The position numbers were made by a program, and so were the translations under genes. The notes under the pieces were generated by a model, which saw only the letters and a list, made by a program, of their open reading frames with translations, was not told the DNA's origin and did not search any database. Positions 42,393-46,648 of a stretch of DNA of 64,000 nucleotides are shown here, piece by piece. Source of the stretch: Nostoc sp. T09 (GTDB taxonomy: Bacteria; Cyanobacteriota; Cyanobacteriia; Cyanobacteriales; Nostocaceae); NCBI RefSeq assembly GCF_002154695.1, contig NZ_MTAV01000127.1, positions 1 through 64,000 of the forward strand. The letters are read 5' to 3'. Each line of letters starts with the position of its first letter. Position 1 is the stretch's first letter.

Positions 42393-42569
42393 GATGATTT
42401 GATAACAAACTCTTTTATATATAAATGTAACAGTTAACCTAGCGTAAAACTGTCAATTTTCAGATTGGGGATTTGTTATTGGTCAAGGGACAAGGGTCAA
42501 GAGTCATTTGTCCTGAGTATCTTTCTCTCGTCTCCCCTGTATCCCCTGTCCTCGGTTTTTAGCTCCCAA

Positions 42570-43692
42570 TTAAGCAGGAGTACTTTCTACTAATTGGTTT
42601 TCTTGCCGCAGATAAGCTTGGATAAACGCGTCAAGGTCGCCGTTCATCACATCGGTAATGGCAGTCGTTTCTGTATTGGTACGCAAATCTTTAACCATCT
42701 GGTATGGGTGAAACACATAGTTACGAATTTGGTTACCCCAAGAAGCTTCCACCATATCGCCACGAATTTCGGCAATTTCTTGGGCACGTTGTTCTCGCGC
42801 AATAATCAGCAGCTTTGCTTTCAGACGAGTGAGAGCTTTTTCTTTATTTTGCAGCTGCGATCGCTCTTCTGTACAACGCACAGCTAGACCAGTGGGAAGG
42901 TGAACAACTCGTACTGCTGTTTCTACTTTGTTGACGTTCTGTCCACCTTTACCACCAGCACGGGATGTAGTAATTTCTAAATCCTTTTCCGGAATGTCTA
43001 GTTGTACAGAACTATCTATTTGTGGCATAACTTCCACCCCAGCAAAACTGGTTTGGCGTTTACCGTTGGCGTTGAATGGTGAAATCCGTACTAAGCGATG
43101 TGTACCAGTTTCCGATCGCAAATAACCATAGGCATAGCGACCAGTAATTTCCAAAGTAGCTGATTTGATTCCGGCTTCATCACCTTCTGATTCTTCAGCT
43201 AAAGTTACTTTGTAACCGTGGGCTTCTGCCCAACGGGTGTACATCCGCATCAGCATAAATGCCCAGTCTTGCGCATCTGTACCACCAGCGCCAGCGTTAA
43301 TTGTCAGTACTGCCCCTTTCTCGTCGTAGGGGCCGGAAAGTAATTGTTGTAACTCCCACTGATCGAGTTCGCTATTCAGCTTGGTAATGGTAGATTCCGC
43401 TTCGTCCAACAACGCTTCGTCAGTTTCTAACTCCAATAACTCAACAACTGCCTTGGTATCTTCCAGACTAGCTTGCCACTGATGATACTGCTGGATGTGG
43501 GCTTTAAGGTCGTTGAGTTCTTGTAGCGTTTCTTGGGCGTTGGTTTGGTCATTCCAAAATTCTGGCTGGGCTGATATTTGTTCCAGGTCTTGAATTTTGG
43601 CAGTGAGTGCAGGTACGTCAAAGATAGTCCTGGGTTTTACCCAGGCGGTAAGACAACGTTTCGATTTCGCGTTTGAGTTCTAAAACATCCAT
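42570..43692 (-). CDS. prfB: Peptide chain release factor 2, programmed +1 frameshift
   Basis: RF2 reads UAA and UGA and releases the finished protein. The gene is in two frames: 24 codons from the ATG at 43692 ([18 protein letters not shown]) to a TGA at 43618-43620, then, after skipping base 43620, a frame from 43619 to 42570 (349 residues). The site CTT-TGA-C, with a purine-rich AGGAC upstream, is the classic RF2 autoregulatory frameshift. The stop-recognition SPF ([10 protein letters not shown]) and the catalytic GGQ (42939-42947) are intact. The product of 373 residues has normal length. Low RF2 favours frameshifting and more RF2. Confidence 0.97.
43618..43635 (-). promoter_or_regulatory. 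Programmed +1 frameshift site of prfB
   Basis: Reading down the minus strand, a Shine-Dalgarno-like AGGA precedes TAT-CTT-TGA-C. The ribosome pauses at the in-frame TGA when RF2 is scarce and slips +1 from CTT to continue as GAC. The coding sense resumes immediately in the new frame. Confidence 0.93.
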
Positions 43693-43882
43693 AGTGCTTG
43701 CTAAAGATAGAGCGCTTCCAATTGTGAGGAACTTGCCCTTCATTCTATTTGCCTTTTTGATTTTAGCCGTAGTTGAGCAAGTTCTCTCGTTTCAGTAATA
43801 TAAGTTGCTAAAATTACTGGGACTAACCGACTATACTACCAAGCAAGAAACAAAAGGGGAGCATCCCACTTTTTTAATTACC

Positions 43883-43979
43883 GTCATTGCGAGCGAAACG
43901 AAGTAAAGCGAAGCAATCGCAGAATCACTAACTAAGAACGCGTCTATGCGATTGCTTCGTCGTTCCTCCTCGCAATGAC
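43883..43979. repeat. 97-bp palindromic interspersed repeat
   Basis: GTCATTGCGAG at 43883 and CTCGCAATGAC ending at 43979 are perfect inverted ends of a 97-bp element with inner arms AAGCAATCGC/GCGATTGCTT. This repeat is of a well-known kind, seen in many bacterial genomes. It lies in the 348-bp gap between prfB and its paralogue. The rest of the gap, 43693-44040, holds nothing else recognised. Confidence 0.85.
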
Positions 43980-44040
43980 AGATAATTTTTCCTGGCTGCG
44001 AAATAAAAACTGGGATGCACCCAAACAAAAGTATATTTGC

Positions 44041-45145
44041 TTACTCTAAGGGTTGATATTGCTGTTGCAAATAGGCTTTGATAAAAATATCAATGTCACC
44101 ATTCAAAACCTCAGTCACAGATGTTGTTTCCACTTGGGTATGCAAATCATTGACCCTGGTATAAGGGTGCAAGATATATTCACGGATTGGCTTTTTGAAT
44201 AGAGATTTTATTTTGCCAAATTGAATCCCGGCAACATCTTGAACACCTTGAGCTTGCATGAAAGCCCATAGCTTACTTTTAAGAATAGCTAAGGCTTGCT
44301 CTTGGTTTTGCAGTTGATTACGTTCTTGGTTACAAAAGATAGTAATTCCAGTAGGAATATGAAATACTTTTACCCACGTTTCCGGGCGGTTCAAATTTCT
44401 ACGATGCCAACATTTAGTTATATCTAAATCCTTCTCTGGAATTTCTAACTCAAAAGATTCATCTAAAATGGGGCTAACTTCTACATTTGCAAAGCAAGTG
44501 AGTCTTTTACCATTACCATTTTGAGGAGGAATCCTGACTATTTTTACATGGCTTCCTTGTTCTGATTTTAGGCAGCCGTAGGCGTAAAGACCTGTAATTT
44601 CTAGCGTGGCAGAGTTAATTCCAGCTACATCACCGTGAGATTCTTCCGCTAGATTTACTCGGTAATTGTGGCTATTTGCCCAACGATGGTACATTCGCAA
44701 TAAAATAGAAGCCCAATCTTCCGCATCTATTCCGCCAATCCCAGCAGTAATAGTAAGAAATGCGCTCTTTTGGTTATAGGAGTCAACTAGTAACTGTTGT
44801 ATTTCTATTGTTTTGACTTCTTGTTGAAGCTGGATGAGGTTAGTTTGCACCTCATGTAATAATTGCTCATCAGGTGAGAACTCCAACAGTTCTAAAGCCG
44901 CTTTGATATCTCCTATAAGTGAATGCGATCGCTGATATTGTCGCTTTTTTGCATTGAGAGATTCAATCTCTTGAGGTATTTGATGAGCACTAAAGCTAGT
45001 TTTACAAAAAGTAGGTTGAGAAATTATTGTTTCTAATTTTTGAATTCTTGTAATTATTTCTCCCAGGTCAAAGACAATGCTCAGCTTTGCCCAGGATATT
45101 CCATAACCTTTCTATTTCGCGTTTGATTTTGGAGAGTTCCAGCAT
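44041..45145 (-). CDS. RF2-like paralogue without GGQ and SPF, with frameshift site
   Basis: Clear paralogue of the neighbouring prfB. It too starts with a short frame (25 codons from the ATG at 45145, or 29 from 45157) ending in CTT-TGA-C; the TGA is at 45068-45070, and coding continues +1 from 45069 to 44041 (342 residues). No further stop interrupts it. It aligns with RF2 all along, but SPF is replaced by PPQ (RIPPQNGNGK) and the GGQ loop by WHRRNLNRPETW, four residues shorter. It therefore cannot act as a release factor. It may bind ribosomes or RNA, like the plant plastid protein PrfB3, which lost the same motifs. Confidence 0.85.
45068..45085 (-). promoter_or_regulatory. Programmed +1 frameshift site of the RF2 paralogue
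   Basis: CTT-TGA-C at the same codon distance from the conserved core as in prfB. The upstream Shine-Dalgarno-like purine element is weaker (GCTGAGCATTGT before CTT). The retained site implies that synthesis of the paralogue still needs slow termination at UGA. Confidence 0.75.
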
Positions 45146-45213
45146 AGTTTTGCTCATTTTCGGCTGACAACTTACTACATATTGTATTACACAAGTCGAT
45201 ATCTCATCCAATA

Positions 45214-45247
45214 AAAAAACCGTGGTTGCTGAGGTTAAACCACGGTG
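45214..45247 (-). terminator. Terminator of the Bax inhibitor-1 gene
   Basis: On the minus strand ACCGTGGTTTAACC pairs with the returning arm AACCACGGT, followed by a run of seven T. It lies 43 bp past the stop of the BI-1 gene. Confidence 0.85.
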
Positions 45248-45289
45248 ATAATTTATAAAACTTTACTTTTTTCCAGTAACTACAGGCGC

Positions 45290-46018
45290 TTAATCACGGC
45301 CATTGAGGGCAATTAACAACCGCAAAATAAAAATGAACAGGTTGATGTAGGTGAGGTACATAGACAAAGCGGCAGGCAAATACTGATCGTTGCGATAAGT
45401 ACGTGGCAAGATGTAGAAATCAACCACAGATGCCCCTGCAAACAGAAATACTCCCAAACCAGAAATGGCGATTTCTAGCCAGGTTGGTGTATAAACACCG
45501 AACAAGGCAAATACAAATTGAGTAAGACAGACAACTACCAAGGCAATAATGCCGAGAGAGATGGTTTTTGTCAAAGCCATCCCGTCTTGTTCAGAAAGAT
45601 TTGAACCAATTTGACGGGCGACAATAAAGGTAACACCACAACCAAGGGCAGCCAAACCAATACCTTGAATGCCAACACCTTGAGTTCTCAAGGCGAGAAA
45701 CACTAAGCCACTGAGAGTATATCCAGATAAGAGGCTGTAGGTAGCCAGTAGGGGAAGTGCCAGTCCCTTGTTGCCTTTTTCAGCAACATTTTGGGCAACA
45801 AAGAACAGAATTAACTCTACGATGACTGCACCAATGAAGGTAGGGAAGAACAATCCGGGGTTGGTACGGATAACTCCAAGACCACCGTAGGTTCCCAGTG
45901 CTGTGAGTACAAGACCGCCACCGACATAGGGAAGGGCATTGGCAATTACATTTGGACCAACGAGGGCTTGAGTTTTAGCCTCACGAATAGCGTCACGGAA
46001 ATTACTGGTGTTGCTCAT
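45290..46018 (-). CDS. Bax inhibitor-1 family membrane protein
   Basis: 242 aa with six to seven predicted transmembrane helices. The C-terminal conserved part has LFAGASVVDFYILPRTY and ALSMYLTYINLFIFILRLL, the usual end of BI-1/YccA proteins. Members act as pH-sensitive calcium leak channels or regulate membrane proteases; the function in cyanobacteria is not established. It has its own terminator. Confidence 0.9.
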   Translation of the reverse strand: MSNTSNFRDAIREAKTQALVGPNVIANALPYVGGGLVLTALGTYGGLGVIRTNPGLFFPTFIGAVIVELILFFVAQNVAEKGNKGLALPLLATYSLLSGYTLSGLVFLALRTQGVGIQGIGLAALGCGVTFIVARQIGSNLSEQDGMALTKTISLGIIALVVVCLTQFVFALFGVYTPTWLEIAISGLGVFLFAGASVVDFYILPRTYRNDQYLPAALSMYLTYINLFIFILRLLIALNGRD

Positions 46019-46648
46019 CTTTAAAACGTGTTTTGCTGATAAATTTCCTGTATACTTCTATTTTTACTAAAATTCATGGCTAGTAACCAGTAAGTCAAAC
46101 TGGAGAAATCATCTTTGTCAGTGTGATTGCCAAATCAGAAAGATGGTAGGAAATCTAAAGTAGAAAAACTTCATTGCTCAACCTAGAATAGCAAAAAGTC
46201 TCATACTAGCTAACTTTTTTAAGCTTCGACAATATCTGCAAATGCTGGTTAATCTTACTGTAATCGCAAAGATTTGCAAGTCAAATTCAGAGATTATAGT
46301 ACAAAATTAGTTTCAAAATTAATACAAAACTTATCTTAATTTTGTGCCACATGGGTGGTGCACATTGAGCAATTTATATATTTTTCAGCATTAATAGTTG
46401 AGTTTTATTGCACCAACTCAAGACAATTAGCCATGCCAATTGTTTTATAGAAAACAAAATTAATCAGCAACAGATATAAATAAAAAATCATGCGTATAAA
46501 TACTGAATCATAGACTAGAGAAGCTGATAAGTTCAGTATAACGACGATGGTTTATTGAGCGTAGTCTAAGGAAAATAATGACAGCTTTGATGACAATATA
46601 CGCAACTCCATTTTTCAGAAAAAGGAGTTACCACAAAGGAATTTTTAT
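46019..46648. other. Intergenic region upstream of sigF
   Basis: About 630 bp, AT-rich. The first 540 bp hold nothing recognised; the last 70 bp hold a small upstream frame and a hairpin listed separately. Promoters for the BI-1 gene and sigF must lie here. Confidence 0.5.

Follow-up and report, generated by a model that had tools for sequence, protein, structure and literature searches.

Why would a cyanobacterium keep, just upstream of an intact gene for release factor 2 (RF2), a full-length relative that lacks the motifs with which RF2 recognizes stop codons and releases the peptide but still carries the RF2 frameshift site? The question is raised by a 64,000-nt stretch of DNA from Nostoc sp. 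T09 (contig NZ_MTAV01000127.1, positions 1 to 64,000), here called the window, in which the RF2-like paralogue spans 44041..45157 on the minus strand, the strand of all genes, motifs and hairpins located below. Its reading frame can start at either of two in-frame ATGs (45157 and 45145) and ends at a stop at 44043..44041. A zero-frame leader of 25 codons counted from 45145 (MLELSKIKREIERLWNILGKAEHCL, 45071..45145) leads into the +1 frameshift site CTT-TGA-C (45067..45073), and the body downstream of the shift is open for 343 residues. An earlier note had described this site as joining two frames at the position where prfB has it, with the body open to its stop, and the window sequence bears that out. 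The intact prfB (42570..43692), with both SPF and GGQ present, is the next gene downstream and has its own CTT-TGA-C at 43617..43623. The gene upstream of the paralogue (45290..46018), which we take to encode a Bax-inhibitor-1-like membrane protein, is syntenic in many relatives. The same genome also contains a prfA, so labelled from its length and score, and a 138-aa ORF bearing an RF-1 domain; Rfam gave no match within 42400..46100 of the window.

Aligned with prfB, the paralogue is identical in 180 of 376 columns. Both Pfam domains score above their cut-offs in the window copy (PCRF 145.2 bits against 24, RF-1 52.8 against 35), the NCBIfam prfB model (TIGR00020) gives it 310.8 bits, below the cut-off of 370, and a structure model (pLDDT 83.9) finds its best match in E. 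coli RF2 (1gqe, TM 0.79), so that the window copy is predicted to have the RF2 fold with PCRF and RF-1 domains. The same alignment places PPQ (44521..44529) where RF2 has its stop-codon motif SPF, and the loop WHRRNLNRP (44383..44409, in a region reading CWHRRNLNRP), with four residues deleted, where RF2 has its GGQ loop. SLFKKP (44188..44205) stands, with the Trp lost, at the position of the RF2 switch loop. The window copy has indeed lost both SPF and GGQ, as the earlier note had it, but across copies the loss is general for GGQ alone: GGQ is absent in 65 of 66 copies, whereas 36 still have SPF. None of the 66 has the switch-loop Trp (two are gapped there), which is present in 9/9 prfB sequences. 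This mixture of kept and lost SPF fits no single decoding-centre role, and we count it against the reading we favour below. The sole copy of the 66 with a GGQ (GRGGQN; L053 / L134 in G142, Nostoc sp. NMS2) still lacks the switch-loop Trp, and its GGQ segment looks like a recombinant. Elsewhere, the segments KDLRT-xx-ET and ERSQ-x-NKEKAL are largely retained among copies, and retention of the prfB consensus is lowest (0.21) in the switch-loop block and highest (0.77) in a 25-residue stretch. At 28 positions at least 75% of the copies agree on a residue that differs from prfB, the prfB side being nine family sequences; examples are Trp233, where prfB has Ala (85%), and Lys169, where it has Arg (all copies).

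To place the gene among genomes we combined profile searches (thresholds 1e-100 with 1e-20 in the family, 1e-75 in a sample of the order, 1e-63 in a sample of the phylum) with hand tallies. A copy or remnant is found in 63 of 217 genomes of the source genome's family, and at these thresholds the paralogue went undetected in 154; in the family scores there is a gap between the copies of 49 genomes, all scoring at least 481 bits, and the next rows, which are prfB and start at 475. The 63 family copies divide into 31 with an open frame, 12 that are open but for a common UGA at codon 167 (one of these cut by a contig end), and 20 that are broken or remnants, G118 and G119 being counted as remnants from the hit table alone. 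The paralogue is dispensable, given the 20 broken copies or remnants and the 154 family genomes in which none was detected, a point against the reading favoured below. In a 388-genome sample of the order, 11 of the 317 genomes outside the family have copies (8 in f2, 2 in f33 and 1 in f21), one of which, G413, has a stop at codon 63. The 386-genome phylum sample gave no copy beyond the order at the 1e-63 threshold. Because copies are found by thresholds, more diverged ones would have been missed, especially beyond the family. Among the carriers with names are Nostoc (N. carneum NIES-2107 is one), Komarekiella, Amazonocrinis, Calothrix brevissima NIES-22 and Tolypothrix.

Some further hits were set aside. 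Six second hits in the phylum sample, in G042, G235, G256, G278, G312 and G572, are all in the prfA score range (1e-64 to 2e-66); they were taken as prfA and not counted. Second hits in G084 and G025 are GGQ-bearing RF2 of another type and were likewise left out; these additional genes (L108 and L109, respectively) lie on small contigs and are probably contamination. In phage and plasmid records all matches fell below 60% identity, and carriage by a phage or plasmid was rejected on this ground; the 30 matches listed are 33 to 36% identical and, where annotated, are RF2.

How did the copies arise? A tree of 58 proteins, built by a quick search under a mixture model, has a split with support 100 that separates 22 paralogues, picked by hand, from 34 prfB, and within this cyanobacterial set the paralogue copies form one clade. 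From a first, separate tree G147, G105 and G087 were dropped. Trees that group the paralogue with the prfB of its own family are rejected by the AU test (p 0.001 for f2, 3e-6 for f33 and 9e-4 for f1). Independent recent duplications of prfB in each family are thereby rejected, by the AU test and the single paralogue clade. With these family-specific groupings rejected, the duplication should predate the split of the families and have been followed by many losses; the phylogeny shows one old duplication with mainly vertical inheritance. The paralogue branches are longer than those of prfB, with that of G316 flagged as long, and attraction between long branches in the 58-protein tree is not excluded by the AU tests.

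Wherever prfB is on the same contig, the paralogue is upstream of it on the same strand, mostly a few hundred bases off (205 to 525 bases from match end to prfB in the 44 family genomes measured, G015 and G018 excepted). In those two a 4.3 kb insert with opposite-strand genes parts the copy from prfB and both copies have stops; the insert is apparently one common event. A remnant in G064 is about 5.6 kb from prfB, the contig of G143 ends at the locus, and G316 has an open copy on another contig than prfB. The gene at 45290 is present in 58 of 81 fetched loci, some of which have short flanks, and its order with the paralogue and prfB recurs in f1, in 2/8 f2 carriers (G386, G413) and in 1/2 f33 carriers (G373). 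Among seven family genomes with no copy, the 45290 gene adjoins prfB in four (G016, G120, G127, G201), with 300-500 bases between, and is about 2.9 kb from it in G103 and G117; in G205 it was not found at the fetched prfB locus. In G184 (L104) two GGQ-less copies, one with CTT-TAG-C and one with CTT-TGA-C, lie in tandem upstream of prfB. In G156 (L077), where the paralogue is open, the match to prfB falls into two overlapping pieces (1-263 and 239-348), so that prfB looks interrupted or partly duplicated.

Copies are also mosaics. G109 and G125, for example, are 0.97-0.98 identical over codons 0-90 and 0.58-0.71 over codons 90-210, and mosaic alleles have blocks at 0.57 to 0.7 identity beside blocks at 0.97. 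In f1 the paralogue dS is often below the prfB dS of the same strain pair (0.04 against 0.256 for G014-G015), although not for G013-G014, which suggests exchange between strains.

At the frameshift site, CTTT-stop-C is found at 68 of 68 paralogue sites, with 55 TGA, 8 TAG, 5 TAA (three of the five, in G015, G113 and G413, in broken copies) and no sense codon. For this census G139, G140 and G147 were dropped and G135 and G072 added. In 15 copies that do not belong to the core set the site was located via its three stop versions, and the same sites were seen without that search. By comparison, CTTTGAC is found in 60/60 prfB genes of family loci, whether the paralogue is beside them or not, and in all 20 of a wider sample. 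The 68 are sequences and not events: about eight changes between stops were placed on the tree by eye. Most single-base changes of TGA give sense codons, and a codon that has changed repeatedly but always into another stop suggests that a stop is needed at the shift site. RF1 reads UAG, and an RF2 sensor would therefore be the wrong reading for the UAG copies; with UAG in 8 and UAA in 5 of the 68 sites, dependence on RF2 at UGA is not universal. UAG in the motif does support +1 shifting, according to passages of two papers: the largest study of CUU substitutions used UAG (PMC5009743), and in E. coli a +1 shift was demonstrated at CUU-UAG-C, the site of a release factor from a giant virus (PMC3521657).

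If synthesis requires the shift, both sides of it should be constrained as one protein. For 25 intact copies the whole body has an omega of 0.376 (lnL -11918.5 against -12151.2 at omega = 1; 2dlnL 465) and the leader, 23 codons in the same copies, one of 0.356 (lnL -633.1 against -647.4; 2dlnL 28). Omega is below 1 in each of six parts of the paralogue, with 0.186 for residues 189-218 and 0.617 for the loop that replaces GGQ (lnL -750.8 against -754.1 at omega = 1), and pairwise values with the window copy are 0.34 to 0.39. The 25 are family copies taken without broken copies, UGA carriers, g47, other families, G142 and G146; G139 (frameshifted), G140 (remnant) and G113 (truncated) were dropped from the codon alignments, and kappa was held in the omega = 1 runs. 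Since copies are mosaic, values from a single tree are approximate, which, with the limit to 25 family copies, also weighs against the favoured reading. The codon models show purifying selection on the intact copies as one protein across the putative +1 frameshift, and synthesis of the paralogue appears still to need that frameshift. Of the proposal that synthesis is tied to slow termination at UGA, the need for frameshifting thus stands, on the 68/68 sites and the constraint on both sides, but the dependence on UGA does not extend to the 8 UAG and 5 UAA copies.

Could the gene nevertheless be a duplicate in slow decay, a tandem prfB copy that the cell can do without and that has weak residual function at most, looking intact because of recency and exchange between strains? 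The 20 of 63 family copies that are broken or remnants favour this, as do the mosaic alleles and an omega about six-fold that of prfB (0.061 in 24 of those 25 genomes, all but G156). The broken pair G014 and G015 also looks neutral (omega 1.02, with 9 synonymous and 31 non-synonymous changes); for G018, also with a stop, the pairwise omega is 0.32. However, neutral evolution, as expected of a pseudogene, is rejected for the 25 intact copies by the 2dlnL of 465, the stop at the shift site is kept in 68/68, a single old duplication has left open copies in four families, and the 28 derived residues are mostly shared. We therefore consider decay unlikely. A pseudogene private to one genome is ruled out for the family by the many related copies and an omega well below 1, although many single copies are broken. 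The signs by which the earlier note would have recognized decay (absence of relatives, random stops, dN/dS near 1) are accordingly met with a divided answer, in that relatives are present and omega is 0.376, but almost a third of the family copies, those same 20, are broken; its reading of the gene as retained and not randomly decaying agrees, in many genomes, with the omega of the 25 intact copies.

The slip site is not all there is to the RF2 switch. In the window prfB, the hairpin CCTGGGT-AAA-ACCCAGG (43629..43645) lies 5' of the shift site, and it is absent from paralogue sites. Over the 24 bases before CTT the mean hairpin energy is -11.1 kcal/mol in 97 cyanobacterial prfB and -2.9 in the 68 paralogue sites. 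A hairpin of up to 7 bp is predicted in every one of the 22 variants among the 97 prfB: 96% of cells pair, against at most 58% in slid controls, and 7 cells are changed on both sides, against a shuffle mean of 2.1 with 0/500 shuffles as high. Two other counts are not unusual, namely two pairs changed on both sides (104/500 shuffles as high) and six further pair types (99/500). The hairpin is a possible natural stimulator of RF2 frameshifting. In vitro, +1 shifting at CUUUGA is enhanced by synthetic hairpins placed upstream (PMC6321510), and no description of a natural prfB 5' hairpin stimulator was found in the literature search or in the parts used of that paper. AGGA is found in 22/68 paralogue sites against 54/60 prfB sites, with AAGG in 19 further paralogue sites. 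The statement that the paralogue kept the RF2 switch therefore needs to be narrowed: judging by these alignments, it retained the slip site, CTTT-stop-C in all 68, but not the prfB-type 5' hairpin, nor mostly the AGGA. With its 5' stimulator weakened, frameshifting may be rare, which we count against the favoured reading.

In part of the family the body holds a second stop. The window copy has TGC (Cys167) at 44572..44574, where 14 aligned relatives have TGA, followed by C in 13 and by A in G111; two damaged copies, G135 and G139, bring the total to 16. At this codon the other copies encode Tyr, Cys, Phe or Leu, and G146 encodes Trp. In the set of 14 carriers, two of which (G111, G152) have a further stop, omega is 0.60 upstream of the UGA and 0.39 downstream, omega = 1 being rejected for both (2dlnL 25 and 90), and the three closest carrier pairs give downstream values of 0.25 to 0.36. 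By hand tallies, other lesions occur in 4/16 carriers and 16/47 non-carriers (Fisher p 0.76). A UGA that terminated the protein would be expected to leave what lies downstream under looser constraint, so a downstream omega below the upstream one speaks against this; selection downstream hints at readthrough, which would be the simplest reading. However, the UGA segment looks common to copies by recombination (G114, G151), and part of the downstream constraint may therefore predate the UGA; a plain killing mutation is not fully rejected. Synonymous diversity over codons 160-180 is low in carriers (0.055 against 0.109 overall) but carries no weight, because it is low in a UGA-less group too (0.029 against 0.102). 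Tentatively, then, expression in part of the family might be gated twice, by the +1 frameshift at CUU-stop-C and then by readthrough of the UGA (UGA-C in 13/14), so that a dead RF2 would be made only under slow termination, to regulate or guard ribosomes at stops; we regard this as possible, though doubtful. No RF2 gene with regulatory stop-codon readthrough in place of the frameshift is known according to the sections used of a 2016 review (PMC5009743), and judged by the same sections a gene using both frameshift and readthrough would, if confirmed, be new for bacteria.

What would such a protein do? The reading we favour, with about even confidence, is that this old GGQ-less RF2 paralogue is made when termination is slow and binds ribosomes or RNA as a non-terminating factor. 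The ribosome would slip at CUU-U only while termination there is slow, so that low release-factor activity, or idling of ribosomes at stops, would be the condition under which the protein is made. The RF2 fold is kept, along with those regions of domains 2 and 4 and of the RF-1 domain which we take to face the ribosome; from these the paralogue may be expected to bind ribosomes (or RNA) without chain release, possibly as a ligand in the A site of ribosomes at stops, which it would hold, protect or retune. As to function, the best inference is a ligand of ribosomes or RNA without catalytic activity. Two features of the locus count against this reading in addition to those named above: a weak terminator-like hairpin just 3' of the window paralogue (44010..44024), between it and prfB, in a region with 6 such hairpins against a shuffle mean of 3.6, and the copy in G316, which is open although off prfB's contig.

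A narrower version of RNA binding would make the paralogue an RNA-stability factor that binds particular transcripts and does not terminate at ribosomes. Its model is PrfB3 of land-plant plastids, which also lost SPF and GGQ and is reported, in the passages used here, to protect petB mRNA (PMC5897788); the window copy has lost both motifs as well. PrfB3 is, however, a land-plant protein, the 36 copies with SPF do not share its loss, and the conserved segments retained look ribosome-facing; we consider such a factor improbable. A third possibility is a conflict or decoy function, in which a fast-changing RF2 look-alike absorbs attack by phages or competitors on RF2 or termination. Patchy presence with repeated loss, the blocks of 0.57-0.7 identity beside blocks of 0.97 and the tandem copies in G184 speak for it, but PADLOC gave no match for the window paralogue, copies mostly adjoin prfB, phage and plasmid matches are as distant as described above, and no part of the six has an omega of 1 or more; we judge it quite unlikely. 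Finally, a cis-acting role, in which translating the upstream frame-shifted gene tunes prfB downstream and the protein is secondary, would suit the usual position upstream on the same strand and the stops in both copies separated from prfB by the 4.3 kb insert (apparently one shared event), but is made very improbable by the amino-acid constraint across the body, the derived residues common to copies, the terminator-like hairpin between the genes and the open G316 copy on a different contig.

As a non-terminating ribosome or RNA ligand the paralogue can be set against known systems, for which, RF2 apart, we draw on parts of the papers cited. With RF2 it shares the fold, PCRF and RF-1 domains, a shift site at the same codon, its usual place as neighbour and a common origin in one old duplication; it differs in lacking GGQ (65/66) and the switch-loop Trp (66/66), in its variable SPF, in a window copy below the NCBIfam prfB cut-off, in a shift stop that may be UAG or UAA and in having no 5' hairpin. 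PrfB3 (PMC5897788) is likewise RF2-derived and without SPF and GGQ, as is the window copy, whereas the paralogue is bacterial, lies beside prfB, is predicted to be frameshift-gated and keeps SPF in many copies. The release factor of Mimivirus (R726) and Megavirus (mg280) resembles the paralogue in a CUU-stop-C motif whose stop is UAG or UAA in place of UGA, and in having a conserved UGA-C in frame within the same gene (PMC3521657). Its authors describe it as a class-I release factor in which the readthrough stop precedes the shift, and they demonstrated readthrough and shift in E. coli (PMC3521657), while the paralogue lacks GGQ and has its UGA, a candidate for readthrough in part of the family, 167 codons after the shift. 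Balon, a bacterial relative of termination factors without stop-codon and GGQ motifs, is a model of a non-terminating A-site ligand but belongs to the aeRF1/Pelota family (PMC10901736), unlike the paralogue with its bacterial RF2 domains and fold; Dom34 is another relative in the aeRF1 family without a working GGQ (PMC6514570). RFH (prfH) and ArfB are also accessory factors derived from release factors, but they retain the catalytic Gln and have no N-terminal domain (PMC6514570), whereas the paralogue is full length without GGQ. No GGQ-less bacterial RF2 paralogue was recognized in the titles and abstract beginnings of the open-access literature searched, and the parts used of PMC3711429, PMC4530459, PMC13245932 and PMC6514570 (section 2.4) make no mention of one. 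Automatic annotation may call the paralogue a pseudogene; frame-shifted prfB itself was mis-annotated in this way in 17 of 428 cases (PMC3711429).

The paralogue would thus be a bacterial RF2 counterpart of the GGQ-less relatives PrfB3 in plastids and Balon and Dom34 in the aeRF1 family (PMC5897788, PMC10901736 and PMC6514570, in the parts cited), tied to its parent gene through position and a recoding signal common to both. With it one can ask by experiment why a translation sensor stayed on a protein that is not expected to terminate, and whether bacteria read the level of termination as a signal for another ribosome factor.

Two small sequence features of the copies and their surroundings may be added. 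In many g37 copies, for example L028, seven residues (MPTAGYA) are inserted in frame after ...SKLFA and before YALAQ; at a guess they come from a small dispersed repeat. In the window itself an inverted-repeat-like element lies between the paralogue and prfB (43883..43980), and its first 36 bases have one other genomic copy at two mismatches or fewer.
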